Assembly (NCBI RefSeq): GCF_004295485.1
Contig: NZ_CP036164.1
Location: 1,240,001 to 1,304,000, forward strand
Direction of reading: 5' to 3'
Source: Janibacter limosus
Lineage (GTDB): Bacteria; Actinomycetota; Actinomycetes; Actinomycetales; Dermatophilaceae
DNA: 64,000 bases
The notes beneath the pieces were generated by a model. That model had not been told where the DNA came from. It did no database searches and saw only the letters and a program-made list of their open reading frames with translations. This document shows positions 51,126 to 63,775 of this stretch, one piece after another (positions within the stretch are counted from its first letter, which is position 1; each line of letters opens with the position of its first letter). Both the position numbers and the translations under genes were made by a program.

Positions 51126-51701
51126 ATGTCCCGCACCGTCGAGGTGGCCCCGGCCCGCCTCGAGCGGTGGGTCGAAGGCTTTGCAGCCCGGCACGACGGC
51201 GCCACGCGCGCCGACGTGCCGGGCTCCTTCGTGCTCACCGGCGGTGATGGCTCGACGGCCACGGGGGAGCCCTTCGACCATGCCCGCATCGGCGTGGTCC
51301 TCGTGCGCCGCGGAGGTCACGCGGTCGGCCGTGACGAAGGGGGCGACCTCGTCGCCCACACCTGCGGCACCGCCTATGTGCAGGGCAGGACCAAGAAGGG
51401 CGGTTGGTCACAGCAGCGCTACGCCCGGCGGCGCGGCAACCAGGCCGACGGCGTGATCGACAAGGTGAGCGAGCTCGCCCTTCGGCATCTGGAGCCAGGG
51501 AGCGTGGACGCCCTGGTGCTCGGAGGCGACCGGCGCATGGCCGAGCAGGTGCTCGACGACGACCGCCTCGCCCACCTGCGCGACCTGCCGCGCCGGACCC
51601 TGTGGGACCTCCCCGACCCCAGGTTTGCTGTCCTCGAGGAAGCCGCCCGGAGGGCGCGCGCCATACGCATCACCCTCGAGGACGCCAGCGACCGAGGTTG
51701 A
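51126..51701 (+). CDS. acVLRF1-family peptidyl-tRNA hydrolase (Vms1/eRF1-like)
   Basis: 191-residue member of the actinobacterial Vms1-like release factor group. The catalytic loop KKGGWSQQRYARRRGNQA (about 90-107) replaces eRF1's GGQ with GxSQ; Q96 or Q97 would be the hydrolytic Gln. In ribosome-associated quality control, Vms1 relatives cleave peptidyl-tRNA on stalled large subunits; the bacterial role is predicted from structure and family. It starts 11 bases after sufT, so it is probably co-transcribed with the suf genes, a link that is not obvious functionally. Confidence 0.85.
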   Translation: MSRTVEVAPARLERWVEGFAARHDGATRADVPGSFVLTGGDGSTATGEPFDHARIGVVLVRRGGHAVGRDEGGDLVAHTCGTAYVQGRTKKGGWSQQRYARRRGNQADGVIDKVSELALRHLEPGSVDALVLGGDRRMAEQVLDDDRLAHLRDLPRRTLWDLPDPRFAVLEEAARRARAIRITLEDASDRG

Positions 51702-51736
51702 TGGCCGGCACGTGACACCAGCGACGGGCGGTGAGG

Positions 51737-51850
51737 GTCGGCGCAGCATCAAGCCGAAGTCGAGAACGACAACGCGACCACACGACGACGACCCTTCGAG
51801 ACGCTTGCTGCGCAAACTCCTCAGGGACCGGACTTCGGCAGCGCGCCGAC
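51737..51850 (-). repeat. Type A palindromic element carrying a nested type B element
   Basis: Reverse-oriented copy of the type A element: left end GTCGGCGCAGCATCAAGC, right end CTTCGGCAGCGCGCCGAC. A type B element (51791-51829) is inserted in its middle. Together with the next entry it fills the 235-base gap between convergent acVLRF1 and metallopeptidase genes. Confidence 0.8.
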
Positions 51851-51895
51851 CGTCATCGCCGGGAGCGGCCCTTCGACGCCGGCCCTTCGAGACGG

Positions 51896-51933
51896 CCCTT
51901 CGAGACGCTTGCTGCGCAAGCTCCTCAGGGACC
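51896..51933 (-). repeat. Type B hairpin element
   Basis: Read on the minus strand: GGTCCCTGAGGA, hairpin GCTTGC-GCA-GCAAGC, then GTCTCGAAGGG. Partial CCCTTCGAGAC half-copies lie just before it at about 51880-51895. The last bases touch the metallopeptidase stop at 51937. Confidence 0.8.
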
Positions 51934-51936
51934 GGG

Positions 51937-52866
51937 TCAGATGTTGTTGGGGTCGCTGACCTCGAAGGTGTCGCACTGGTTGACGGAGGTGGCGTTCATC
52001 CCGCGCAGCAGCCAGGCCTGACGGGCCTTGGCCGAGCCGTGGGTCCAGGACTCGGGCTGGACGCCACCACCGGACTTCTTCTGGATCTCGTCGTCGCCGA
52101 CGGACTTGGCCGCACCCATGGCGTTGGTGACATCGGCGTCGCTGATGTCGGTGAGCAGCGCCTGGCCCTGGGCGTCCTTGGTCTCGGTGGCGTGCTGGAT
52201 CCACATGCCGGCGAAGCAGTCGGCCATCAGCTCCACGCGTACGGCACCGGAGTCAGCGCCCTGCGGGTCCTTCTGGGCCTCGCCGAGCACACCGTAGACA
52301 TTCTGGATGTGGTGGCCGTACTCGTGCGCGAGGACGTACAGCTCGGCGAGCACGCCGTCCTGGGCCCCGAGCTGCCGCTCCATGATGTCGAAGAAGTCGG
52401 TGTCGATGAAGATCTGCTCGTCGACGGGGCAGTAGAAGGGACCGACCTGGTTGCTCGCGGTGCCGCACTGGGACTGGGTCTGCCCCGTGTAGACGACGAC
52501 CTTGTCGGGTCCGCGGAACTGCTGGTTGGCGTCCTGGAGGGCCTTGGCCAGGTCGGGCTGGTCGCTCCAGAAGTCCTGGAGGCTGTTCTCGCCGAGGACC
52601 ATGAGGCACTCGCGATCGTTCTTGGCATCGGCGCCCGTCTTGCACTTCTCCGCCAGGCGCTGGTCGCTCTGGCCCTGGCCGGTGTCCTGCGGCGCACCAC
52701 CACCGCCGAGCATGTCGCCGTTGCCGGTCAGGACGAGGATCACGGCGATGATCAGGCCGACGATTCCGCCACCTCCGGCGATCACAGGGCCCCGCCCTCG
52801 GCCGCCACCGCCACCGCCGCCGCCCATGCGCGAGGTGTCGAGCGAGGCGTTGTCGTTGATGCTCAT
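51937..52866 (-). CDS. Neutral zinc metallopeptidase (YpfJ family)
   Basis: 309 residues. A Gly-rich cytosolic N terminus (GGGGGGGGRGRG, residues 15-26), one membrane helix at about 29-47, then an extracellular zinc metallopeptidase domain with HEYGHH (H181, E182, H185) and the third-ligand region MADCFAGMW. PEDQ-like CPVDEQIFIDTDFF precedes the motif as in YpfJ proteins. ATG 52866 follows GGAGGA by 7 bases. Function unknown; divergent from the ABC-F gene. Confidence 0.9.
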   Translation of the reverse strand: MSINDNASLDTSRMGGGGGGGGRGRGPVIAGGGGIVGLIIAVILVLTGNGDMLGGGGAPQDTGQGQSDQRLAEKCKTGADAKNDRECLMVLGENSLQDFWSDQPDLAKALQDANQQFRGPDKVVVYTGQTQSQCGTASNQVGPFYCPVDEQIFIDTDFFDIMERQLGAQDGVLAELYVLAHEYGHHIQNVYGVLGEAQKDPQGADSGAVRVELMADCFAGMWIQHATETKDAQGQALLTDISDADVTNAMGAAKSVGDDEIQKKSGGGVQPESWTHGSAKARQAWLLRGMNATSVNQCDTFEVSDPNNI

Positions 52867-52934
52867 GGGTGGTTCCTCCATGGGGCTCGGTCCGGGGGAC
52901 CGGGACGGATGCGGTGACCCGAGGGTCTGCGACT

Positions 52935-52941
52935 TACACTA
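52935..52941. promoter_or_regulatory. Overlapping divergent -10 boxes (metallopeptidase / ABC-F)
   Basis: TACACT on the plus strand (52935-52940) and TAGTGT on the minus strand (52941-52936) overlap by five bases, forming a near-symmetric TACACTA. Leaders of about 35 and 60 bases would result, both with Shine-Dalgarno sequences before the starts. Confidence 0.5.
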
Positions 52942-52980
52942 ACCGGCGACCCACCGTTCGTACGTGCAGGAGAACCACCC

Positions 52981-54579
52981 GTGATCACAGCAAGCAGCAT
53001 CGAGCTGCGGGCAGGCTCGCGGATCCTCCTGGATGGCGCGTCCTTCCGCATGGCGGCAGGAGACCGGGTCGGACTCGTGGGCCGCAACGGCGCCGGCAAG
53101 ACCACCCTCACCAAGGTGCTGGCCGGTCAGGCGCAGGCCGCCTCGGGGCAGGTCACCTCCACCGGGGGCATCGGCTACCTGCCGCAGGACCCGCGCACCG
53201 GCGACCTCTCCGTCACCGGCCGTCAGCGCATCCTCTCCGCGCGCGGTCTGGACCGCATCGTCACCGACCTGCGCGCCACCGAGAAGAAGATGGCCAGCGC
53301 GGACCCGGAGACCCTGGAGAAGGCGATGGGGCGCTTCGGTCGGCTGCAGGAGGAGTTCGACGCGGCCGGCGGGTACGCCGCCGAGTCCGAGGCCGCGAGC
53401 ATCGCCTCGGCCCTCGGGATCGACGAGGGGCGTCTGGACCAGAGCCTCGAGACGCTCTCGGGTGGCCAACGACGAAGGGTGGAGCTCGCCCGGATCCTCT
53501 TCTCCGGCAACGAGACCCTCCTGCTCGACGAGCCGACCAACCACCTCGACGCCGACTCGATCGGCTGGCTGCGCGAGCACCTGAAGAACTACAAGGGCGG
53601 GCTGATCATCATCAGCCACGACGTCGAGCTGCTCGAGGTCGTCGTCAACCGGGTCTTCCACCTCGACGCCAACCGGTGCGAGCTGGACATCTACAACATG
53701 GGCTGGAAGAACTACCTCCAGCAGCGCGAGACCGACGAGCGCCGCCGCAAGCGTGAGGTGCAGAACGCCACCAAGAAGGCGACCGTCCTGCTCGAGCAGG
53801 CCGACAAGATGCGCGCCAAGGCCACCAAGGCCACTGCGGCGCAGCAGATGATCAAGCGCGCCGAGCGGATGCTCGCCGGAGTCGAGGGGGAGCGCACCCA
53901 GGACCGGGTGGCCAAGCTGCGCTTCCCGGACCCGGCTCCCTGCGGGCGGACCCCCCTTCGTGCCTCTGGCCTGTCCCGCTCCTACGGGAGCCTGGAGATC
54001 TTCACCGACGTCGACCTGGCCATCGACCGGGGGACCAAGGTCGTCGTCCTCGGGCTCAACGGCGCCGGCAAGACGACGCTGCTGCGGATGCTCGCCGGGG
54101 TCGACGCACCGGACACCGGGCAGGTCGAGCCGGGGCACGGGCTGAAGCTCGGGTACTACGCCCAGGAGCACGAGAACCTCGACGTCGACCGGTCGGTGCT
54201 GGCCAACATGAAGTCGGCCGCACCCGACCTGGGCGAGACCGAGGTCCGCAAGGTGCTCGGCTCCTTCCTCTTCAGCGGCGACGACGTCAACAAGCCTGCC
54301 GGTGTGCTCTCCGGTGGCGAGAAGACCCGTTTGTCCCTCGCGCTGCTCGTCGTCTCCAGCGCCAACGTCCTGCTCCTCGACGAGCCGACCAACAACCTCG
54401 ACCCCGCCAGCCGCGAGGAGATCCTCGGCGCGCTGTCGACCTTCAAGGGTGCCGTCGTCCTCGTGACCCACGACGAGGGCGCCGTCGACGCACTGCAGCC
54501 CGAGCGGATCCTGCTCCTGCCCGACGGCGTCGAGGACTTCTACAGCCCGGACTACCGGGACCTGGTCACCCTGGCCTGA
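52981..54579 (+). CDS. ABC-F family ATPase (ribosome-associated)
   Basis: 532-residue protein with two ABC domains and no membrane segment. Walker A GRNGAGKTT (34-42) and GLNGAGKTT (second half), signatures LSGGQRRRVELAR and LSGGEKTRLSLAL, and a charged inter-domain linker (QQRETDERRRKREVQNATKKATVL) of the ABC-F type. ABC-F proteins act on ribosomes in translation factors or antibiotic protection; nothing in the linker indicates resistance. GTG 52981 has AGGAG 8 bases upstream. Confidence 0.93.
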   Translation: MITASSIELRAGSRILLDGASFRMAAGDRVGLVGRNGAGKTTLTKVLAGQAQAASGQVTSTGGIGYLPQDPRTGDLSVTGRQRILSARGLDRIVTDLRATEKKMASADPETLEKAMGRFGRLQEEFDAAGGYAAESEAASIASALGIDEGRLDQSLETLSGGQRRRVELARILFSGNETLLLDEPTNHLDADSIGWLREHLKNYKGGLIIISHDVELLEVVVNRVFHLDANRCELDIYNMGWKNYLQQRETDERRRKREVQNATKKATVLLEQADKMRAKATKATAAQQMIKRAERMLAGVEGERTQDRVAKLRFPDPAPCGRTPLRASGLSRSYGSLEIFTDVDLAIDRGTKVVVLGLNGAGKTTLLRMLAGVDAPDTGQVEPGHGLKLGYYAQEHENLDVDRSVLANMKSAAPDLGETEVRKVLGSFLFSGDDVNKPAGVLSGGEKTRLSLALLVVSSANVLLLDEPTNNLDPASREEILGALSTFKGAVVLVTHDEGAVDALQPERILLLPDGVEDFYSPDYRDLVTLA

Positions 54580-54605
54580 GGCCCGCGCTCCACCACGTGA
54601 GACAC

Positions 54606-54646
54606 ATAACGGTGAGTTATGAGTTCCATAAGTGAGTCCCTACTAT
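54606..54646 (+). promoter_or_regulatory. Promoter and double inverted-repeat operator of the sulfite reduction operon
   Basis: Two overlapping inverted repeats with 5-base spacers: ATAAC-N5-GTTAT (54606-54620) and TTATG-N5-CATAA (54617-54631), followed by -10 TACTAT (54641-54646). GTGAG occurs in each (54612, 54632). The layout suggests cooperative binding of a dimeric repressor or activator over the -35 region; the regulator is not in this window. Confidence 0.5.
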
Positions 54647-54653
54647 GGGTCGT

Positions 54654-56312
54654 GTGACTGTGACGACCCGACCCACGCGCACCAAGTCCAACGGAGCCTG
54701 GGCTGATGGTGACCGGACCCCGCTGAACCCCAACGAGGCGTTCAAGCAGGAGGACGACGCGCTCAACGTTCGTGCGCGCATCATCGACACCTACTCCCAC
54801 GAGGGCTTCGACTCCATCGCCGAGGACGACCTCACGGGGCGCTTCCGCTGGATGGGTCTGTACACGCAGCGCAAGCCCGGCCTCGACGGAACCCACACCG
54901 GCGAGGATGACATCTCCGACTCGCGCTTCATGATGCGCGTCCGCAGCGACGGCGGCCAGCTGACCACCGAGCAGGTGCGCACCATCGCCGGGATCAGCAC
55001 GGACTTCGCCCAGGACACCGCTGACATCTCCGACCGGCAGAACATCCAGCTGCACTACGTGCAGATCGAGGACGTGCCCGAGATCTGGCGCCGGCTCGAG
55101 TCGGTCGGTCTGTCGACGACCGAGGCCTGCGGTGACTGCCCTCGCACGATGATCGCCTCCCCGGTGGCGGGCATCGAGAAGGACGAGATCGTCGACGGCA
55201 CCCCCGCCCTGCAGGAGATCAAGCGCAAGTTCATCGGCAACCCCGAGTTCTCCAACCTGCCGCGCAAGTACAAGACGGCGATCTCCGGATCCCCGACACA
55301 CGACATCGCCCACGAGATCAACGACATCTCCTTCGTCGGCGTGGTCCACCCCGAGCTCGGTCCGGGCTTCGACGTGTGGGTGGGCGGTGGCCTCTCGGTC
55401 AAGCCGATCTTCGCCCAGCGTCTGGGCGTGTGGGTCTCGGTCGACGAGGTGCCCGAGATCTGGGAGGGCGTGACGAGCATCTTCCGCGACCACGGCTACC
55501 GTCGTCTGCGCAACAAGGCCCGGCTGAAGTTCCTCATGGCCGACTGGGGCCCGGAGAAGTTCCGCGAGATCCTCGAGAACGACTACCTCGGCCGTCGCCT
55601 GCCCGACGGACCGGAGGCGACGGTCGCTCCCGGCACTCGTCGCGACCACGTGGGGATCCACGAGCAGAAGGACGGTCGGGTCTGGGTCGGTGCGGCCCCC
55701 ATCGCCGGGCGCATGACCGGCACCAAGCTCACCCGCCTGGCCGAGCTGGCAGAGGCCGTCGGCAGTCAGCGCATCCGATTCACCCCGCACCAGAAGGTGC
55801 TCGTCCTCGATGTGCCGCGAGCAGCTGCCGACCAGCTCGCCGTCGACCTCAAGGAGCTCGACCTCGAGGTCCACCCGAGCGAGTGGCGTCGCAATGTCCT
55901 GGCCTGCACGGGTCTGGAGTTCTGCAAGCTGGCCCTGACGGACACCAAGAACCGCGCCCGCTGGACCGTGGAGGAGCTCGAGAAGCGCCTGCCGGACATG
56001 GACGTCCCCTTCAGCATCCACCTCAACGGCTGCCCCAACGCCTGCGCCCGCAGCCAGGTCGCCGACGTCGGCCTCAAGGGCATGTTGGAGCAGAAGGAGG
56101 ACGGCACCTACATCGAGGTCTTCCAGGTGCTGCTCGGTGGCTCGCTCGCCGAGGACACCGCGTTGGCCCGCAAGACCCGAGCGCTCAAGGTTGCCGGCGA
56201 CGACCTGCCCGACTACATCGAGCGCCTGGCCCGCACCTACCTCGCCCAGCGCGCCGACGGCGAGTCCTTCGCCAGCTGGGTGCGACAGGCCGACGAGGAC
56301 GACATCCGATGA
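54654..56312 (+). CDS. sir: Ferredoxin-type sulfite (nitrite) reductase
   Basis: 552-residue siroheme/[4Fe-4S] reductase of the NirA/SirA family. Cluster ligands C418, C424, C460 and C464 (CTGLEFC and GCPNAC) and the two half-domains with FRWMGLYTQRKPG and FTPHQKVLVLDVP. Since cysH and a sirohydrochlorin chelatase follow, sulfite is the likelier substrate than nitrite. I choose GTG 54654, which is 7 bases after the TACTAT -10; ATG 54645 lies inside that box and would be outside a transcript from it. Confidence 0.93.
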   Translation: MTVTTRPTRTKSNGAWADGDRTPLNPNEAFKQEDDALNVRARIIDTYSHEGFDSIAEDDLTGRFRWMGLYTQRKPGLDGTHTGEDDISDSRFMMRVRSDGGQLTTEQVRTIAGISTDFAQDTADISDRQNIQLHYVQIEDVPEIWRRLESVGLSTTEACGDCPRTMIASPVAGIEKDEIVDGTPALQEIKRKFIGNPEFSNLPRKYKTAISGSPTHDIAHEINDISFVGVVHPELGPGFDVWVGGGLSVKPIFAQRLGVWVSVDEVPEIWEGVTSIFRDHGYRRLRNKARLKFLMADWGPEKFREILENDYLGRRLPDGPEATVAPGTRRDHVGIHEQKDGRVWVGAAPIAGRMTGTKLTRLAELAEAVGSQRIRFTPHQKVLVLDVPRAAADQLAVDLKELDLEVHPSEWRRNVLACTGLEFCKLALTDTKNRARWTVEELEKRLPDMDVPFSIHLNGCPNACARSQVADVGLKGMLEQKEDGTYIEVFQVLLGGSLAEDTALARKTRALKVAGDDLPDYIERLARTYLAQRADGESFASWVRQADEDDIR

Positions 56313-57049
56313 GTGCCGCTCACTCGCAGGATCGGTTGCAGGAGATCGCCCGAGCCGGTGAGCAGCAGTTCGCCGCGCTCGAGGCCGAGCTCGGGGACAC
56401 GCACGAAGGGCGGATCGAGCTCGGTCGTCGCGCGCTGGCCTGGGCGCAGGAGACCTTCGGCGACGGGCTCACCGTGGCCAGCTCGATGGGCGACGAGGTG
56501 CTCGTGCACCTCGTCGGCACGACCCTCGAGGGTGCCGACGTCTTCTTCCTCGACACCGGCTATCACTTCGCCGAGACGCTCGGCACGCGGGACGCGTACG
56601 ACGCGATGCTGCCGATCACCATCCGGACGATCTACCCGCGCCTGACGGTGGCCGAGCAGGACGCGGAGCACGGTCCGCAGCTGCACGACCGTGACCCCAA
56701 CCTGTGCTGCGCCATGCGCAAGGTCGAGCCGCTCAACCGCGCGCTCGATGAGCACGACGCCTGGGTGACCGGCATGCGTCGCGAGGACGCGCCGACCCGC
56801 ACCGACATCACCATCGTCGGCTGGGACGAGCGCCGCGGCATGGTCAAGCTCAACCCGATCGCGGGCTGGACCCAGGACGATGTCGACCAGTACGCGGCCG
56901 AGAAGTCGGTCTTCCTCAACCCCCTTCGCCAGAGTGGCTACGCCTCCATCGGGTGCGCCCCCTGCACCCGACCCGTCGCCGAGGGCGAGGACGCACGGGC
57001 CGGACGCTGGTCGGGCACGGACAAGGTGGAGTGCGGACTCCACACGTGA
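56309..57049 (+). CDS. cysH: Adenylyl-sulfate (APS) reductase, CysH family
   Basis: 246-residue reductase. The four cluster cysteines C133, C134, C216 and C219 (NLCCAMRK and GCAPC) mark the [4Fe-4S] APS-reducing type rather than the cluster-free PAPS type, and C242 in the C-terminal ECGLHT is the nucleophile. Makes sulfite for Sir encoded upstream, with ATGA overlap. Its TGA also overlaps the ATG of a 29-codon repeat ORF. Confidence 0.94.
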   Translation: MSAAHSQDRLQEIARAGEQQFAALEAELGDTHEGRIELGRRALAWAQETFGDGLTVASSMGDEVLVHLVGTTLEGADVFFLDTGYHFAETLGTRDAYDAMLPITIRTIYPRLTVAEQDAEHGPQLHDRDPNLCCAMRKVEPLNRALDEHDAWVTGMRREDAPTRTDITIVGWDERRGMVKLNPIAGWTQDDVDQYAAEKSVFLNPLRQSGYASIGCAPCTRPVAEGEDARAGRWSGTDKVECGLHT

Positions 57050-57138
57050 TGCACGACCTTGAGGAGATGCGCCGTCGAGCGCACGACCTTGAGGAGATGC
57101 GGCCTCGGGCGCACGACCTTGAGGAGATGCGGCCGTGA
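57049..57138 (+). CDS. 29-residue repeat peptide bridging cysH and chelatase gene
   Basis: ATG 57049 shares bases with the cysH TGA (TGATG), and its TGA (57136-57138) shares bases with the chelatase GTG (57135). The ORF is three tandem in-frame copies encoding HDLEEMR(R/P)RA, highly charged and probably helical. Each copy contains GAGGAG; the last one sits 8 bases before the chelatase GTG and serves as its ribosome site. It may be a real peptide or only a translational bridge. I know of no family. Confidence 0.45.
   Translation: MHDLEEMRRRAHDLEEMRPRAHDLEEMRP
57051..57134 (+). repeat. Three tandem 30-bp repeats
   Basis: Units begin GCACGACCTTGAGGAGATGC at 57051, 57081 and 57111 (last truncated to 24 bases); units 2 and 3 match in the 24 bases, unit 1 differs at a few. 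Fills exactly the space between cysH and the chelatase gene. Confidence 0.9.
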
Positions 57139-57782
57139 CGACCGTGCTGCTTGCCCACGGGTCCCCGGACCCGAGGCACGCAGCGACTCTCGAGCGTCTG
57201 CGGGAGCGGGTGGCCGGACCGCTGCGCGACGCGGCGAAGGGGGAGACCCGCCTCGTCTACATCGAGCACGACCACCCGCGCCCGCACGATCTCGGCCCGA
57301 CCCTGACCGACGAGGTCACCGTCGTGCCGATGCTCGTCACCCCGGCCTTCCACGCGCGTGTCGACGTGCCCGCTGCGGTGCGAGCCCTCGGCGCGGCAGG
57401 TGCGCCGGTCCGGGTCGCTCCCGCGCTCGGGGGAGACCCGCTGCTGCTCGTCGCCGTCGACGAGCGCCTGGTGGCCGCGGGGCACGCCGTCGACCAGCCG
57501 GTGCTGCTCGTCGCCGGGGGTTCGAGCTCCGGCCAGGCCGGCCAGAGCATCCGGACCCTGCTCGACACGCACCCCCGGGCGGGCTGGCTGACCATGACCC
57601 TCGCCGCGCCACGCGCCGGCGCCACGACCGGCCGGGTCGTGGTCCCGGCGACCCTCGCGGAGGGCGTCCTCCACGACAAGGTGGCCGCCCTCGCGCAGGC
57701 CGCGGGGTCCCCCTTCGTCGCCGGAGGGCTGGCGGACACCGCCGCTGTCGCGTCGCTCGTGCTGCGCCGGGCACTCGGCTGA
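57135..57782 (+). CDS. Sirohydrochlorin chelatase (CbiX/SirB family)
   Basis: 215 residues, two CbiX-type half domains. LLAHGSPDPRHAATL carries the first metal-binding His and VVPMLVTPAFHARVDVPAAV the second. It would insert Fe2+ into sirohydrochlorin to form siroheme for Sir, two genes upstream. GTG 57135 with GAGGAG 8 bases upstream. CobA/precorrin enzymes are not in this window. Confidence 0.88.
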   Translation: MTTVLLAHGSPDPRHAATLERLRERVAGPLRDAAKGETRLVYIEHDHPRPHDLGPTLTDEVTVVPMLVTPAFHARVDVPAAVRALGAAGAPVRVAPALGGDPLLLVAVDERLVAAGHAVDQPVLLVAGGSSSGQAGQSIRTLLDTHPRAGWLTMTLAAPRAGATTGRVVVPATLAEGVLHDKVAALAQAAGSPFVAGGLADTAAVASLVLRRALG

Positions 57783-57851
57783 CACACCCGTAGGGAATCC
57801 TGAGGGGACCGGCGGGGTTGTCGCCACCGGACCGACGAGGAGCACACACGG

Positions 57852-59744
57852 ATGACGATGAACAACGCATGGGGCCTGATGCGCTCGATGAGCAGCGACG
57901 AGACGACGCGCGCACCCCTGCCGCCCGGGACCGCTCGGCGGGTGATGGGCTATGCCCGGCCCTTCAGCCGGATCATCGCCGGGTTCCTCGTGCTCGTCGC
58001 TGTTGGCTCGCTCACCGTGGTCGCCGTGCCGCTGCTGCTGCAGCGACTCATCGACGACGGCGTCATCCCGCAGGACCGCCGCGTCGTCGTCACGATCGCC
58101 CTCCTCGTCGCGCTCATCGCGCTCGTCGAGGCTGGCACCACGCTCGTGCAGCGATGGCTCTCCGCCCGCATCGGTGAGGGGCTGATCCACCACCTGCGCA
58201 CCGAGGTCTTCGCGCACGTGCTACGTCAGCCGATCGCCTTCTTCACCCGGGCCCAGACCGGGGCGCTGGTCAGCCGGCTCAACAACGACGTGATCGGCGC
58301 TCAGCAGGCCTTCACGACCGTGCTGTCCTCCGTCGTCAGCAATGTCATCTCGCTCGTGCTCATCCTCGGTGCGATGTTCGCCCTGTCGTGGCAGCTGACG
58401 CTCGCCGCGCTCGTGCTGGTGCCCTTCTTCATCCTCCCGGCGAAGTGGATGGGCCGACGCCTGGCTTCGCTGTCGGCCGAGCAGATGAACCTCAACGCGG
58501 ACCTGGGCAACCAGATGACCGAGCGCTTCAACGTTGCCGGTGCCCTGCTCGTCAAGATCTTCGGCCAGCCCGCGCGAGAGGTCGCCCTGTACGACCAGCG
58601 CGCCGCCCGGGTACGCGACATCGGCGTGCGGATCGCGGTCAACCGGGCCGTCTTCTTCATCATGCTCACCCTGCTGGCCTCGATCGCCACCGCGATGGTC
58701 TACGGCTTCGGCGGCGTCATGGCCGTCGAGGGGACCCTGACGGTCGGCACGCTGCTGGCCCTCGCGGCGCTGCTGGCCCGGCTCTACGGTCCGCTGACCG
58801 CGATCTCCAACGTCCACGTCGACATCCTCACCGCGCTCGTCTCCTTCGCCCGTCTCTTCGAGCTGCTCGACAAGCCCTCGAGCATCCAGGAGGCGCCCGA
58901 CGCCCGGCCGCTCCCCTCGGGTGAGGCGCTGTCCGTCGAGATGGACGACGTCCACTTCACCTACCCGGGAGCCGACTCGATCTCGCTGCGCTCCCTCGAG
59001 GGTGCGACCACCGGCGACCGCGACCAGGGCGGTCCCGTCCTGCAGGGAGTCAGCCTGCGGGCCGAGCCCGGGCAGCTCATCGCCCTGGTCGGGCCGAGCG
59101 GCGCCGGCAAGAGCACGATCACCTCGCTCGTCACGCGCTTCTACGACCCGACGAGCGGCGCAGTGCGCATCGGCGGCCATGACCTGCGCAGCGCGACGCT
59201 GGAGTCGGTCGGAGCGACCGTGGGGATGGTGACCCAGGAGGCGCACCTCTTCCACGACACCCTGCGCGCCAACCTGGCCTACGCACGCCCGGACGCGACC
59301 GAGGCCGAGATGTGGGAGGCGCTCGAGGCGGCCCGCATCGGCCATCTCGTCCACACGCTGCCGGCGGGACTGGACACCGTGGTCGGCGATCGCGGTCACC
59401 GGCTCTCCGGTGGCGAGAAGCAGCGCTTCGCCATCGCGCGCCTGCTGCTGAAGTCACCCGCCGTACTCATCCTCGACGAGGCCACCGCCCACCTGGACAG
59501 CGAGTCGGAGGTGGCCGTCCAGCGTGCGCTCGACACCGCGCTCGAGGGCCGTACCGCGATCGTCATCGCCCACCGCCTGTCCACGATCCGCGCCGCCGAC
59601 CAAATCCTCGTGGTGGACGACGGCCGGGTCGTCGAGCGCGGCACCCACGAGGAGCTGCTCGCGGCCGCCGGCCTCTACGCCACCCTCTACGCCACGCAGT
59701 ACGACGGCGGGGTCTCGCAGGACACGGCCGAGGTCGCGGGCTGA
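57852..59744 (+). CDS. ABC exporter with fused membrane and ATPase domains
   Basis: 630-residue half-transporter: type I six-helix membrane domain (about 40-330; the EF-like loop contains NADLGNQMTERFNVAGALLVKIFGQP), then an ATPase with Walker A GPSGAGKST, signature LSGGEKQRFAIARLLL, Walker B AVLILDEATAHLD and IAHRLSTIRAAD. Such proteins dimerise to export lipids or drugs. ATG 57852 has GAGGAG 9 bases upstream. Single gene; substrate unknown. Confidence 0.9.
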   Translation: MTMNNAWGLMRSMSSDETTRAPLPPGTARRVMGYARPFSRIIAGFLVLVAVGSLTVVAVPLLLQRLIDDGVIPQDRRVVVTIALLVALIALVEAGTTLVQRWLSARIGEGLIHHLRTEVFAHVLRQPIAFFTRAQTGALVSRLNNDVIGAQQAFTTVLSSVVSNVISLVLILGAMFALSWQLTLAALVLVPFFILPAKWMGRRLASLSAEQMNLNADLGNQMTERFNVAGALLVKIFGQPAREVALYDQRAARVRDIGVRIAVNRAVFFIMLTLLASIATAMVYGFGGVMAVEGTLTVGTLLALAALLARLYGPLTAISNVHVDILTALVSFARLFELLDKPSSIQEAPDARPLPSGEALSVEMDDVHFTYPGADSISLRSLEGATTGDRDQGGPVLQGVSLRAEPGQLIALVGPSGAGKSTITSLVTRFYDPTSGAVRIGGHDLRSATLESVGATVGMVTQEAHLFHDTLRANLAYARPDATEAEMWEALEAARIGHLVHTLPAGLDTVVGDRGHRLSGGEKQRFAIARLLLKSPAVLILDEATAHLDSESEVAVQRALDTALEGRTAIVIAHRLSTIRAADQILVVDDGRVVERGTHEELLAAAGLYATLYATQYDGGVSQDTAEVAG

Positions 59745-59752
59745 CGCCTCGG

Positions 59753-59800
59753 CCGGGCCTCTGGGCGGCCAGTCAGCCGGGCCTCCGGGCGGCCGGTCAG
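59753..59800. repeat. 24-bp direct duplication at SURF1 3' end
   Basis: Two adjacent 24-bp units, 59753-59776 and 59777-59800, differ at two positions. The SURF1 stop codon (59797-59799) lies in the right unit. They span the gap between the convergent ABC exporter and SURF1 genes and can fold through GGCCGGGCC-like arms. Confidence 0.75.
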
Positions 59801-60567
59801 CCGTCCTCCTCGTCCCAGATGCGCACCTTCTTGGGGCGGGGCGAGCGCTCGGAGCCGTCCTGCACCTCGCGCCGCAGCGCCATGACCAGGAAGATCCAGA
59901 ACGCGGGGATGGCCAGCCACCACTGGACGGCGTAGGCCATGTGCGGCCCGGTGCCGGTGTCGGGGACCTCGAGCGGGGCCGGCCGGGGGACCGTGGGGTC
60001 CTCCGACTGCAGCGAGAGATAACCGCCGAGCAGCTGGCCGTCGACCTCCGCGGCGGCCTCCTGCAGGTTGATGCTCGCGAGCTGGCCCGGCTGCATGCGT
60101 CGACCCAGGCTCTTCTCACCCAGACGGACCCAGCCGGTGGCCGTGACCTCGCCCTCGGGTGCCGGCGGGACCTCGGGGGCGACGTCGGCTCCCTTCGGGC
60201 TGTTGTCGACCCACCCCCGATCGACGAGCAGGACCTGCCCACCCGTGAGGCGAAGGGGGACGAGCACCTCGTAGCCGTAGGCCCCGTCGAGCGGTCGGTT
60301 GCGCACGAGCAGCTGCTCGTCGGCCAGGTACTCACCGGTGGCGGTGACCCGGGTCCACTCGTCGGTGACGGGCGCCGGCGAGTCCGACAGGACCTCGGTG
60401 ACCGGGACCGGTGTGGCCGTGTAGTGGCTGTCGATCCGGTCGGCGCGGGCGGCCTTGTCCTCGTACCTGCCCCACTGCCACTGGCCCAGCCAGACGAAGG
60501 CGATCGAGACCACGAGGGCGACGGCGAACCACCCGAGCCACCTCGGGGTGAGGGCACGACGCAGCAT
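59797..60567 (-). CDS. SURF1 family cytochrome oxidase assembly protein
   Basis: 256 residues with the SURF1 layout: membrane helix 1 at about 11-30 (LGWFAVALVVSIAFVWLGQWQW), an external domain with TGEYLADEQLLVRNRPLDGAYGYEVLVPL and GGQVLLVDRGWV, and helix 2 at about 213-231 (QWWLAIPAFWIFLVMAL). Helps insert heme A into cytochrome oxidase, in line with ctaA and ctaB here. ATG overlaps the stop of the next gene upstream (TGATG). Confidence 0.92.
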   Translation of the reverse strand: MLRRALTPRWLGWFAVALVVSIAFVWLGQWQWGRYEDKAARADRIDSHYTATPVPVTEVLSDSPAPVTDEWTRVTATGEYLADEQLLVRNRPLDGAYGYEVLVPLRLTGGQVLLVDRGWVDNSPKGADVAPEVPPAPEGEVTATGWVRLGEKSLGRRMQPGQLASINLQEAAAEVDGQLLGGYLSLQSEDPTVPRPAPLEVPDTGTGPHMAYAVQWWLAIPAFWIFLVMALRREVQDGSERSPRPKKVRIWDEEDG

Positions 60568-60782
60568 CAGCCGGCGTCAGCAGGGATCTCGTCGACCGCG
60601 CAGGTCGTCACGGGGAAGCCGCGGACGGCCAGGTGGTCGCGCAGGACCTCCTCGTGGTCGTCGCACGCCAGCCACACCTTGCGGCGGGACTCGTCGTGGA
60701 TGCGCGGGTTGCGCCACAGGACAGCCCGGGTCGCCTGCTGCCGGCACGCCTTGCGGCTGCAGACCAGGTCGTCGCTGCTCAC
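60567..60782 (-). CDS. Small Cys-rich, probable zinc-binding protein
   Basis: 71 residues. C8, C13, C40 and H43 (VCSRKAC and LACDDH) form a likely zinc site; the middle ATRAVLWRNPRIHDESRRKVW is conserved in actinobacterial relatives that are at times misnamed acetone carboxylase. GTG 60782 overlaps the DUF3099 stop and its own stop overlaps the SURF1 ATG, so it is translated between them. Function unknown. Confidence 0.72.
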   Translation of the reverse strand: MSSDDLVCSRKACRQQATRAVLWRNPRIHDESRRKVWLACDDHEEVLRDHLAVRGFPVTTCAVDEIPADAG

Positions 60783-61057
60783 TGGTGGACCACCTGTCGT
60801 CGCGGGTCGTCCACGGGGGTCATCGACGTGTCGTCGGACCGGGGTCGCACGGCGTTGACGAGCACGACCGCGATGTAGGGCAGGACGACCGCCAGGGCGA
60901 CGCACACCCACCGCAGCCACCCCTCGAAGAAGTAGGCACCGATGAAGCAGGCCGTCCGCAAAGCCATCGTCGCCAGGTACTGACGCATGCGTCCGGCCTG
61001 CTCGTCGTGGAGCGAGATCGGGGCGGTCGTGACTGACGGGACGGACGTGTGTTGCAC
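60779..61057 (-). CDS. DUF3099 membrane protein
   Basis: 92 residues. Two membrane helices (about 29-46 and 48-66) after the conserved HDEQAGRMRQYLATMALRTACF, which matches DUF3099. GTG 61057 lies 6 bases from TAGGCT. First gene of the DUF3099 / zinc protein / SURF1 operon, so probably an envelope or respiratory accessory (inference). Confidence 0.85.
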   Translation of the reverse strand: MQHTSVPSVTTAPISLHDEQAGRMRQYLATMALRTACFIGAYFFEGWLRWVCVALAVVLPYIAVVLVNAVRPRSDDTSMTPVDDPRRQVVHQ

Positions 61058-61063
61058 CTCTTC

Positions 61064-61069
61064 AGCCTA
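61064..61069 (-). promoter_or_regulatory. -10 box TAGGCT, leaderless DUF3099 gene
   Basis: On the minus strand TAGGCT is followed by 6 bases and GTG 61057. Confidence 0.5.
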
Positions 61070-61188
61070 CGCCGCACCACCTGTCGGGAGTTCCACGGGG
61101 CGGTCCCGGTGCGACGTACCGAGCGGTAGTGCTCTAGCGTCGTGCGCAGACGTGATCTGACGCACATGACCCACGACGAAGGAGCAGG

Positions 61189-61899
61189 ATGACACCGCGC
61201 CGAGTGCTCGTCACCGGAGGCAATCGAGGCATCGGCGAGGCCATCGCCCGCCGCCTGAAGGAAGACGGCCACACGGTCGTGGTCACGTCCCGGTCGGGCG
61301 ATCCAGTCGACGGGATCGACGCCGTCGCCTGCGAGATCACCGACAGCGACTCGGTCGATGCCGCCTTCGTGGAGGCCAAGGAGCGACTGGGTGGCGACGT
61401 GGAGGTGCTCGTCGCCAACGCGGGCATCACCAAGGACACCCTGCTGATGCGGATGACCGACGACGAGTTCGCCTCGGTCGTCGACACCAACCTGCACGGC
61501 ACCTTCCGGTGCGTGCGCCGTGCGGCGACCCCGATGGTCAAGGCCCGCTTCGGTCGGGTCGTGCTCATCTCGAGCGTCGTCGGTCTCTACGGGTCACCCG
61601 GTCAGGCCAACTACGCCGCGTCCAAGGCCGGTCTGGTCGGCCTCGCCCGCTCGATGACGCGTGAGCTCGGCGCCCGGGGCATCACCGCCAATGTCGTGGC
61701 GCCCGGGTTCATCGAGACCGACATGACGGCCGAGCTGCCCGACAAGACCAAGGCCGAGTACCAGGCCGCCATCCCGGCCCGTCGCTACGGCGGCGCCGCC
61801 GAGGTGGCTGCGGCCGTCTCCTTCCTCGCCTCCGACGACGCGGCCTACATCTCCGGCGCGGTCATCCCCGTCGACGGCGGCCTCGGCATGGGCCACTGA
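61189..61899 (+). CDS. fabG: 3-oxoacyl-ACP reductase
   Basis: 236-residue short-chain dehydrogenase: TGGNRGIGEAIA NADP motif (about 8-19), NAGITKDTLL, catalytic Ser in LISSVVG and YAASKAG with Tyr and Lys. The pair with fabI just downstream matches the mabA-inhA arrangement of mycobacteria, acting in type II fatty acid synthesis. AAGGAG lies before ATG 61189. Confidence 0.94.
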   Translation: MTPRRVLVTGGNRGIGEAIARRLKEDGHTVVVTSRSGDPVDGIDAVACEITDSDSVDAAFVEAKERLGGDVEVLVANAGITKDTLLMRMTDDEFASVVDTNLHGTFRCVRRAATPMVKARFGRVVLISSVVGLYGSPGQANYAASKAGLVGLARSMTRELGARGITANVVAPGFIETDMTAELPDKTKAEYQAAIPARRYGGAAEVAAAVSFLASDDAAYISGAVIPVDGGLGMGH

Positions 61900-61937
61900 C
61901 CCACCCCTTCTTCCTCCCGCAGAACGAAAGGCAGCAG

Positions 61938-62693
61938 ATGCTCACCGGAAAGACCTTCCTCATCACGGGCGTCCTCATGGAGTCCTCGATCGCCTTCCAC
62001 GTCGCCAAGCTGGCGCAGGAGCAGGGGGCCAAGGTGATCCTCACCAGCTTCGGCCGGACGATGAAGATCACCAGGACCATCGCCAAGCGGCTGCCGCAGG
62101 AAGCCCCGGTCATCGAGCTCGACGTCACCAGCGAGGAGGACCTCGCCGCACTGTCCGACCGCATCGGTGAGCACGCCGAGCGCCTCGACGGGGTCCTGCA
62201 CTCCATCGGCTTCGCCCCCGAGGGTGCCTTCAACTTCCTCGAGGCGAAGTGGGAGGACGTCGCCACCGCCGTCCACGTCTCGGCCTACTCGCTCAAGGCC
62301 CTCGGCGTCGCCGCGCTCCCGCGGATGAGCGAAGGCGGCTCGATCGTCGGACTGACCTTCGACGCCTCCTATGCCTGGCCGGTCTACGACTGGATGGGGG
62401 TCGCCAAGGCGGCCTTCGAGTCCACCAACCGCTACCTCGCGCGTGACCTCGGCCCGAAGGGAGTCCGCTGCAACCTCGTCGCCGCCGGACCGATCCGCAC
62501 CACCGCGGCCAAGTCGATCCCCGGGTTCGAGCAGTTCGAGGAGTCCTGGGACACCCGCTCGCCCATCGGCTGGGACGTCAACGACCCGGTACCGACCGCC
62601 AAGGCCTGCACGATGCTCCTGTCCGACTGGTTCCCCGCCACGACCGGCGAGATCCTGCACGTCGACGGTGGCGTGCACGCGATGGGGATCTGA
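61938..62693 (+). CDS. fabI: Enoyl-ACP reductase (InhA/FabI type)
   Basis: 251-residue enoyl-ACP reductase. LTGKTFLITGVLMESSIAFHVAK is the atypical NAD loop of FabI/InhA, HSIGFAPEGAF follows, and the catalytic Tyr-X6-Lys is YDWMGVAK. Reduces enoyl-ACP in the last step of each elongation cycle. ATG 61938 with AAAGG upstream, 38 bases after fabG. Confidence 0.95.
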   Translation: MLTGKTFLITGVLMESSIAFHVAKLAQEQGAKVILTSFGRTMKITRTIAKRLPQEAPVIELDVTSEEDLAALSDRIGEHAERLDGVLHSIGFAPEGAFNFLEAKWEDVATAVHVSAYSLKALGVAALPRMSEGGSIVGLTFDASYAWPVYDWMGVAKAAFESTNRYLARDLGPKGVRCNLVAAGPIRTTAAKSIPGFEQFEESWDTRSPIGWDVNDPVPTAKACTMLLSDWFPATTGEILHVDGGVHAMGI

Positions 62694-62710
62694 GCCCTCC
62701 CGCTCCCTGA

Positions 62711-62856
62711 GGTCCCTGAGGAGGCCGCGCCGCGGCCGTCTCGAAGGGTCGGCTCTCGCTCTCGCTCCCGGTGAGGACGGCCGGCGCGCTGCCGAAGTCC
62801 TTCGTCCTCGTCGGGTGGGGTTGTCGTTCTCGACTTCGGCTTGATGCTGCGCCGAC
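62711..62856 (+). repeat. Type B + type A element, first tandem copy
   Basis: Type B at 62711-62750 with hairpin GGCCGC-GCC-GCGGCC, then type A at 62779-62856. Followed at a 165-base period by a second B + A pair. The two copies fill the 350-base gap between convergent fabI and serB; I see no gene in it. Confidence 0.8.
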
Positions 62857-62875
62857 CCTCCTCACCGTCCGCTCC

Positions 62876-63009
62876 GGTCCCTGAGGAGGCCGCCCCGCGG
62901 CCGTCTCGAAGGGTCCGCCCCCGGTGTGGACGGCCGGCGCGCTGCCGAAGTCCTTCGTCCTCGTCGGGCGTGGTTGTCGTTCTCGACTTCGGCTTGATGC
63001 TGCGCCGAC
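62876..63009 (+). repeat. Type B + type A element, second tandem copy
   Basis: Type B at 62876-62915 with hairpin GGCCGC-CCC-GCGGCC and type A at 62932-63009; both copies run on into CCTCCTC(A/G)CCGTCCGCTC, so the whole block was duplicated. Confidence 0.8.
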
Positions 63010-63043
63010 CCTCCTCGCCGTCCGCTCGGCTCTGGGCGGCGGG

Positions 63044-63775
63044 TCAGGTCAGGGGGTGGCCGCCCTCGTCGTCGGGCTGGGGGAGCGGGTCGATGCCGAG
63101 GATGTCCAGGACGCGGCGCAGGTCCGGCTCGTCGATCGAGACGTCGGCCTGCTCGCGCACGGCGGGCTTGGCGCAGAAGGCGATCCCGAGCTGGGCGGCG
63201 GCCATCATGTCGAGGTCGTTCGCCCCGTCACCGACGGCCACGGTCCGGTCCATCTCGATGCCGGAGGCAGCGGCGAGGCGGATGACGAACTCCGCCTTGG
63301 CAGCACGGTCGACCACATCGCCGAGCACCTTGCCGGTGAGGTGACCGTCGATGATCTCCAGGTGGTTGGCCCGAGCCTGGGCGATGCCCAGCTCGCTGGC
63401 CAGGTCGTCGACGACCTCGGTGAACCCACCGCTGACGAGACCCACGGTGTGGCCGGACTCGACGAGGGTCGTGACGAGGGTGCGGGCGCCGGGCGTCAGC
63501 CGAACGGCGGCGCGGACCCGGTCGAGGACCTCGACGGGCAGTCCCTCGAGGGTGGCCACCCGTGCGTGCAGGCTCTGCGCGAAGTCCAGCTCGCCCCGCA
63601 TCGCGGCCTCGGTGACGGCCGCGACCTGCTCACGGGTTCCCGCGTGCTCGGCGATGAGCTCGATGACCTCGTCACGGATGAGCGTGCTGTCGACGTCCAT
63701 CACGAGGACCAGTGGTCCCTCGCCCGGGAGAGCGGGTGCCGGTGCCTGGTCGGTGCTGCCCGGGGTGCGTGCCAT
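63044..63775 (-). CDS. serB: Phosphoserine phosphatase SerB
   Basis: 243-residue HAD phosphatase: nucleophile motif DVDST at 27-31, LVSGGFTEVV as motif II, Lys in DVVDRAAKAEF, and GDGANDLDMMAAA as motif III/IV. Last step of serine synthesis. It lacks the ACT domains of mycobacterial SerB2. ATG 63775 lies 7 bases from TAGACT, which is built on the glgC stop. Confidence 0.93.
   Translation of the reverse strand: MARTPGSTDQAPAPALPGEGPLVLVMDVDSTLIRDEVIELIAEHAGTREQVAAVTEAAMRGELDFAQSLHARVATLEGLPVEVLDRVRAAVRLTPGARTLVTTLVESGHTVGLVSGGFTEVVDDLASELGIAQARANHLEIIDGHLTGKVLGDVVDRAAKAEFVIRLAAASGIEMDRTVAVGDGANDLDMMAAAQLGIAFCAKPAVREQADVSIDEPDLRRVLDILGIDPLPQPDDEGGHPLT

Follow-up and report, generated by a model that had tools for sequence, protein, structure and literature searches.

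We analysed 64,000 nucleotides of the Janibacter limosus genome (the window: NCBI RefSeq assembly GCF_004295485.1, contig NZ_CP036164.1, positions 1,240,001 to 1,304,000 of the forward strand), in which four copies of a short hairpin lie. It is near certain that the four are dispersed copies of a family of the repetitive extragenic palindromic (REP) type. The results as a whole are best explained by REP-type hairpins with a partner, a GIY-YIG nuclease that would recognise and spread them, and we give this reading a probability of about 0.7. It is carried by covariation within the hairpin, by the position of one subfamily of GIY-YIG genes between elements of matching class in two phyla, and by the insertion of elements at new sites.

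Anatomy and covariation of the hairpin family

The four hairpins lie where a first-pass annotation of this DNA had placed them (limits in Table 1). As that annotation had pointed out, the inner stems vary at three positions and every one of these is paired, with one G-T pair in copy 1; the outer CCCT/AGGG arms pair in the four window copies as well, but they are invariant among these four. Folding as single-stranded DNA gave z scores of -0.86, -3.06, -2.23 and -2.54 for copies 1 to 4. The pattern GAGGAN{4,30}GTCTCGAA matched the window five times, with two matches overlapping, against an expected 0.13, and none of 100 shuffles reached five matches. Across the 3.545-Mb genome it gave 75 matches versus 3 for the backwards pattern; 67 of these passed a stem filter, and 66 were kept as copies, the match at 465079 being false. 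One of the 66 copies is without the 3' outer arm, and two longer-core copies (170185 and 513046) are among the eight matches that failed the stem filter. A hairpin of ~35 nt present in 66 mainly extragenic copies in one genome is what the general definition of a REP describes.

Read 5' to 3', the element consists of a foot (CGNT), the first arm of the outer stem, GAGGA, an inner stem closed by a loop of 2-4 nt, GTCTCGA and the second outer arm. The foot is unpaired, and among the 67 filtered matches (one of them false) its C is kept in 54, its G in 66 and its T in 58; no conservation was seen 3' of AGGG in the same matches. The outer stem is CCCT/AGGG in 55 of the 67, TCCT/AGGG in 6 and GGCT/AGCC in 4, and the inner stem comes in at least seven types in this one genome (GCTTGC, GGTTGC, GGCCGC, GGTCGC, GCTCGC, GGCGC and others), each with its complement and each sharply discrete. 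The base changes do not divide into two unrelated subfamilies, which the first-pass annotation had named as a way in which its idea of compensatory change could fail: the seven or more stem types share the same flanks, and the outer arms are swapped from CCCT/AGGG to GGCT/AGCC in 4/67 matches. No T-rich columns were found 3' of the hairpin among the 67 matches, and an intrinsic terminator was rejected because no T-run follows the hairpin. Since the foot stands on one side only, the element resembles a REP, not a terminator. In general terms the element reads outer stem, YGAG N .. N' TCGAR, outer stem, and most often an inner stem is present as well. The foot is mostly CGNT in the actinobacterial copies read and mostly CCTCA in the alphaproteobacterial ones, among which neighbours are often inverted.

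Covariation was scored on the collected genome copies, as had been suggested with the original observation, by a home-written, R-scape-like test (G-statistic with average-product correction; null values obtained by redistributing the substitutions over a FastTree tree), and it was significant. In the window's genome (64 unique copies), the inner pairs 15-27, 16-26 and 17-25 scored above every one of the 344,400 null values; no other variable pair, whether inner or outer, reached significance in this genome alone (E 0.95-3.1, and 2-3 for the outer pairs). A superfamily alignment was built with GAGNAG and CGTNTCGA as the sole fixed letters and without a pairing filter, leaving out 153 matches with a pattern-prescribed stem and 18 with short cores. 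In its 203 unique rows, the column pairs reaching E < 0.05 were exactly the eight designated variable ones; when a pairing filter was applied (190 rows), seven of the eight reached this level. We found a new pair, between the N of GAGNAG and the N' of CGTN'TCGA, within the part earlier deemed constant. At the strong GIY-YIG loci described below, the N-N' counts were G-C 72, T-A 17, C-G 8 and C-C 4 (one with outer pairs), and all others 0. With N and N' paired, the neighbouring G residues would be unpaired and GA would form a bulge. The fold is kept by covariation, in the genome (three inner pairs) and in the superfamily (8/8 pairs), which bears out the earlier proposal of a constraint on the hairpin beyond the sequence alone.

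A GIY-YIG gene between matching elements

A partner gene was sought around the copies. The RAYT was tried and rejected: its Y1 transposase domain (PF01797) was found in none of 39 genomes (the window's and 38 relatives) and in none of 15 Nocardioides-side genomes (genus code g260, taken as Nocardioides from its outer arm and abundance), with a positive E. coli control; it was present in 4/19 further genomes and in none of the six richest in elements. Clustering of neighbour genes at copy-bearing loci ranked an oxidoreductase cluster at the top (18 proteins, 14 loci) and returned a GIY-YIG cluster at four loci. The GIY-YIG protein is a single domain of 92-113 amino acids (~95 amino acids), and all five proteins scanned matched PF01541 (E 1e-15 to 1e-16). 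Y15, G17, R25, H29 and E62 were invariant in 7/7 aligned sequences, and the conserved Tyr, Arg, His and Glu of the Y15/R25/H29/E62 type are presumably catalytic. The protein also matched the single-domain GIY-YIG proteins of UPF0213 in PDB 1zg2 (E 1.2e-18) and 1ywl (E 1.3e-14), entries that are named hypothetical and for which the literature covered here gave no connection with repeats. The gene lay between inverted copies in 7/8 of the loci first seen, and in the window's genome it is located at G000:C1:2240682-2240963, within the densest copy cluster seen.

A profile search was carried out on 57 chosen genomes, many of them picked for holding elements; as a counterweight, the set included eight genomes from other genera of the family and seven Nocardioides-side ones that lack the window's element type. 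The profile matched 40 of the 57 at E <= 1e-6, of which 36 matched at E <= 1e-20, and the other four contained distant paralogues only. Under exact-type rules (elements within 400 bp of the gene), 33/46 strong loci were flanked on both sides and 38/46 on at least one, compared with 0/21 weaker loci. A general rule was then defined as YGAG N..N' TCGAR with N' complementary and four outer Watson-Crick pairs, within 300 bp. Two duplicates (L206, of the same species as L205, and L233) remain among the 46 strong loci and were left out of the general-rule flanking counts and the class counts (44 loci). By the general rule, 39/44 strong loci were flanked on both sides and 43/44 on at least one, and omission of the five loci that seeded the profile gave 34/39 and 38/39. 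The weaker loci were flanked on both sides in 1/21 and on either side in 3/21, a set that includes a 77-bit borderline member (L249) with elements on both sides. Element density was 6.22 per kb within 300 bp of the gene versus 0.38 beyond 500 bp, and 0 in reversed sequence. Ordinary genes in the element-bearing loci were flanked on both sides in 10/514 cases and on either side in 142/514. In a second, evenly drawn alphaproteobacterial sample, the gene was found in 10/114 genomes (G703 aside) at 12 loci, 9 of which were flanked on both sides and 11 on either side under the general rule. These results strongly support a specific association of the GIY-YIG subfamily with the elements in two phyla. 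In the window, the general rule returned the four copies and two further sites, versus one site in the reversed window. An element form without an inner stem (TGAGCTTGTCGAA and similar) adjoins the GIY-YIG gene at L271, L275-L277, L281, L282 and L241.

We also examined the class of the flanking elements. The same class stood on both sides in 32 of the 39 both-flanked genes (shuffled mean 10.1, maximum 18), and in 14 of 19 in the Nocardioides-side subset (shuffled mean 2.8, maximum 9). One genome (G461) contains five paralogues, four of which lie beside GAGCAG, GAGGTG, GAGTAG and GAGGAG elements, respectively, and the fifth is flanked by a longer GAGCAG-like form that differs slightly between the two sides. 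On a protein tree of 47 rows and 93 columns (26/44 inner forks open; 39 rows with an element class; L206 left out), element class changed 7 times versus 14.1 times when shuffled, and none of 500 shuffles had as few changes; for the Actinobacteria-only rows (25, without L233) the values were 7 versus 12.4, again with 0/500 as few. Copy number in Janibacter varied with gene class (n 5 and 5), with p 0.036 for GAGGAG and 0.047 for GGTG elements, a result given little weight because many coding sites are hit by the GGTG pattern too. A metagenome-assembled genome of Reyranella (G703) carries three cassette-like units of gene plus flanking elements that are 89-92% alike, with flanks beyond the repeat arrays unaligned, although its short contigs call for caution. 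The two genes of genome G013 represent one duplicated stretch: at G013:C1 74624 and 3479305 (L233 and L213), 3.27 kb are 99.97% identical near both contig ends, which is either an assembly overlap or a real terminal duplication.

The elements share several features with the GTAG/RAYT (TnpA-REP) REPs of E. coli, Pseudomonas and Stenotrophomonas, which are likewise intergenic, high-copy hairpins of 20-40 nt, single or paired, with a short unpaired 5' tag, a conserved bulge in some groups and a cognate nuclease gene between copies. They differ in their tag (CGNT or CCTCA instead of GTAG), in their core (TGAGNAG/CGTN'TCGA) and in the gene between copies, which encodes a GIY-YIG nuclease here and an HUH/Y1 enzyme there. 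Br-REP1 and Br-REP2 of Bradyrhizobium are also alphaproteobacterial REPs and lie in 3' untranslated regions, but their sequences differ (PMC5082802). CGTC REPs are also without a RAYT partner, being reported to have no dedicated transposase (Di Nocera et al. 2013, PMC3733652); by the description there, they are set apart by a CGTC tag, a stem of 8-9 bp, a loop of 4-5 nt and the lack of the present core.

The distant alphaproteobacterial GIY-YIG paralogues (L250-L269) were found to have CGTC-tagged hairpins on both sides at 7/20 loci and on either side at 9/20 (examples are L260, L261, L264 and L266-L269). The density of CGTC hairpins was 2.22 per kb near these genes versus 0.40 far from them, and a reversed control gave 0.09 per kb near the genes, with none flanked on both sides and one on either side. 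For the first GIY-YIG subfamily, CGTC hairpins stood on both sides at 0/46 loci and on either side at 8, with no excess near the gene. 'GIY-YIG' was not found in the main text of PMC3733652, and neither a GIY-YIG-REP link nor the present hairpin was found in open-access PMC literature (titles and abstract openings among the matches listed). We put at even odds the wider proposal that GIY-YIG nucleases drive a second, independent REP system, in which class-matched hairpins bracket the gene and the nuclease would recognise and spread the bulged hairpin, and which would comprise both the TGAG..TCGA superfamily of Actinobacteria and Alphaproteobacteria and the CGTC REPs.

Spread of the elements and competing explanations

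Pattern matches within the genus ranged from 2 to 135 per genome, the two in G001 being non-hairpins. Neither a hairpin nor a GIY-YIG gene was found in G001, and G014 had one hairpin, with the gene not found. A tighter pattern matched 21 of 394 genomes of the class, with the highest numbers in genus codes g1 and g260. Code g1 is probably Janibacter, since the GIY-YIG coordinates of J. terrae (G709) and of G008, a member of g1, are identical. A scan of named genomes with one 31-base variant containing four two-way positions returned at least 120 stretches. Among the matches listed, the actinobacterial ones were from Janibacter, Nocardioides, Marmoricola and Agromyces, and the alphaproteobacterial ones from Methylocystis, Microvirga, Bradyrhizobium, Reyranella, Pelagibius, Rhodospirillales and others. 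The identical 31 bases occur in Janibacter hoylei (L101) and Microvirga (L097), members of two phyla. Twenty genomes reached through loci had 9 to 220 matches each, with 0 in backwards controls. Nocardioides agariphilus contains tandem arrays, with a hairpin each 131 bp in L079 (5485-6300) and each 105-108 bp in L113 (4782-5454).

Element copy 1 of the window was found inserted within a copy of a second repeat, element A; copies of element A without the insert are present in the window and in sister genomes. Genome G011 has the same insertion as the window's genome (G000), and G012 has an independent insertion at nearly the same point. Target duplication was not visible at the joins, where 1-2 bases differ. 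These two clean cases show that elements have inserted at new sites. Placement was determined with a home-made gene finder: 50 of the 66 copies are intergenic and 16 lie inside predicted open reading frames. Of the 50 intergenic copies, 38 lie closest to the 3' end of a gene (p 0.0003 versus an even split), and convergent gaps make up 16/39 distinct copy-bearing gaps versus 8/31 window gaps of at least 30 bp, a weak excess. Orientation relative to the nearest 3' end showed no significant bias (26 opposite, 16 same, p 0.16).

A mobilising role of the GIY-YIG nuclease is the likeliest explanation of these data, and the recognition and spreading of hairpins by it are inferred. Homing enzymes contain GIY-YIG domains, as does the structure-specific Slx1 (PMC1564403), and E. 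coli TnpA-REP needs the foot tag and the bulge for REP recognition (PMC8266576), which makes recognition of a bulged hairpin plausible. The nuclease would recognise the bulged hairpin when the DNA is folded as a single strand or forms a cruciform, and the natural contact and cut sites would be the bulged bases, which are invariant, and the outer foot. It may cut beside the hairpin, which could then reach a new place by strand transfer or by copying during repair. It would thus have the role thought to belong to the Y1 transposase RAYT for classical REPs. The survival of copies at 3' ends may reflect how little damage they cause in that position, or a function as mRNA 3'-end hairpins.

Several observations weigh against this explanation. 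Seven of the 39 both-flanked genes have unlike classes on their two sides, and clean filled/empty sites were recovered in two cases only. The general rule was written after the flanks of the first set and the hairpins of the second set had been viewed, and under a narrower rule the second alphaproteobacterial sample gave 2/12 loci flanked on both sides and 4/12 on either side; because the rule was widened in this way, the flanking result rests chiefly on the reversed-sequence and distance controls. Elements were present with no GIY-YIG gene detected in G009 (69 matches), G012 (32), G002 (13) and G003 (13), indicating that the gene is not required for element persistence, and 5/7 Nocardioides-side genomes without the window's element type carry the gene, beside other types. 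A replication-strand bias was not evident in a simple count with the origin taken as the contig start. The ViennaRNA DNA fold of the GAGGAG type favours GAGG/TCTC pairing over the covarying register.

Elements in genomes with no detected nuclease gene, together with the REP-like anatomy and the placement at 3' ends, would also fit a family that was once spread by a since-lost Y1 (RAYT) transposase, with the GIY-YIG gene merely sitting in REP-rich, permissive intergenic DNA. We consider this unlikely, given that no Y1 transposase was found in the 15 Nocardioides-side genomes or the six element-richest genomes and that ordinary genes share the two-sided flanking so rarely. Also against it are the two-sided class match, the different classes beside paralogues of one genome, and the finding that distant GIY-YIG paralogues in element-rich alphaproteobacterial genomes have no element within 300 bp and often have CGTC REPs. 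The 3'-end placement and the weak excess of convergent gaps could instead mean that the hairpins are kept as stabilisers of mRNA 3' ends or as bidirectional terminators, those near the nuclease gene regulating that gene. This is improbable, and slightly more so than a lost transposase: the T-run is missing, a terminator needs neither invariant bulges nor an unpaired foot, sister species range from two matches (neither a hairpin) to 135, and matched element classes around one nuclease subfamily are left unexplained. Moreover, 3'-end placement is reported for known REPs of other kinds (PMC3733652).

The compensatory changes themselves might have arisen without selection, if template switching within the hairpin keeps the palindrome symmetric. 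Template-switch correction is known for quasi-palindromes, and the sharp discreteness of the inner-stem types agrees with it. As a full account we regard this as very unlikely, the least probable of the three, since such templating should erase asymmetry, whereas copies from both phyla repeatedly show the GA bulge and an unpaired G to either side, and conservation of the foot is one-sided; the invariance of GAG and TCGA was prescribed by the search patterns and is not independent evidence here. Selection is only partly separable from hairpin-templated mutation, but the conservation of the bulges speaks against templating alone.

The proposed partnership of hairpin and GIY-YIG nuclease bears on a general question: REPs are frequent in bacteria, and for CGTC REPs and others no mobiliser was known. 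With a nuclease partner matched by class in two phyla, the question of the REP mobiliser becomes one for a binding and cleavage assay, and a nuclease gene between matching copies may explain how such repeats arise and spread. If the proposal is true, the set of enzymes acting on folded DNA hairpins would gain a nuclease fold unrelated to HUH enzymes, and the 'hypothetical' GIY-YIG proteins, a widespread class, would have a possible use.

Elements and neighbouring genes in the window

Table 1. Hairpin elements, element A copies and adjoining genes (window coordinates)
Feature	Position	Strand	Details
Element copy 1	51792..51830	-	Foot CGGT 51827-51830; hairpin 51792-51826; stem GTTTGC/GCAAGC (one G-T); within element A copy
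Element copy 2	51896..51934	-	Foot CGGT 51931-51934; hairpin 51896-51930; stem GCTTGC/GCAAGC
Element copy 3	62710..62748	+	Foot AGGT 62710-62713; hairpin 62714-62748; stem GGCCGC/GCGGCC
Element copy 4	62875..62913	+	Foot CGGT 62875-62878; hairpin 62879-62913; stem GGCCGC/GCGGCC
Element A copy split by element copy 1	51727..51860	-	Limits approximate, from inverted arms
Two unbroken element A copies	62763..62879 and 62916..63032	+	94% alike; element copy 4 between them
acVLRF1 release-factor-like gene	51126..51701	+	PF18859, E 1e-45; 3' end toward copies 1 and 2
Putative neutral zinc metallopeptidase gene	51937..52866	-	PF04228, E 6.3e-62; convergent with acVLRF1-like gene
Enoyl-ACP reductase gene	61938..62693	+	PF13561, E 2.5e-71; 3' end toward copies 3 and 4
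HAD-family hydrolase gene	63044..63775	-	PF12710, E 9e-23; convergent with enoyl-ACP reductase gene

No Rfam family matched at its gathering score across the window. Partial element copies adjoin full ones at 51883-51894 (3' half) and 62701-62712 (5' half). Element A is a palindromic repeat of ~117 bp, with further copies in sister genomes and at other places in this genome. Another intergenic repeat, of ~83 bp, lies at 57051-57133 and has at least nine further matches in the same genome at 86-90% identity.

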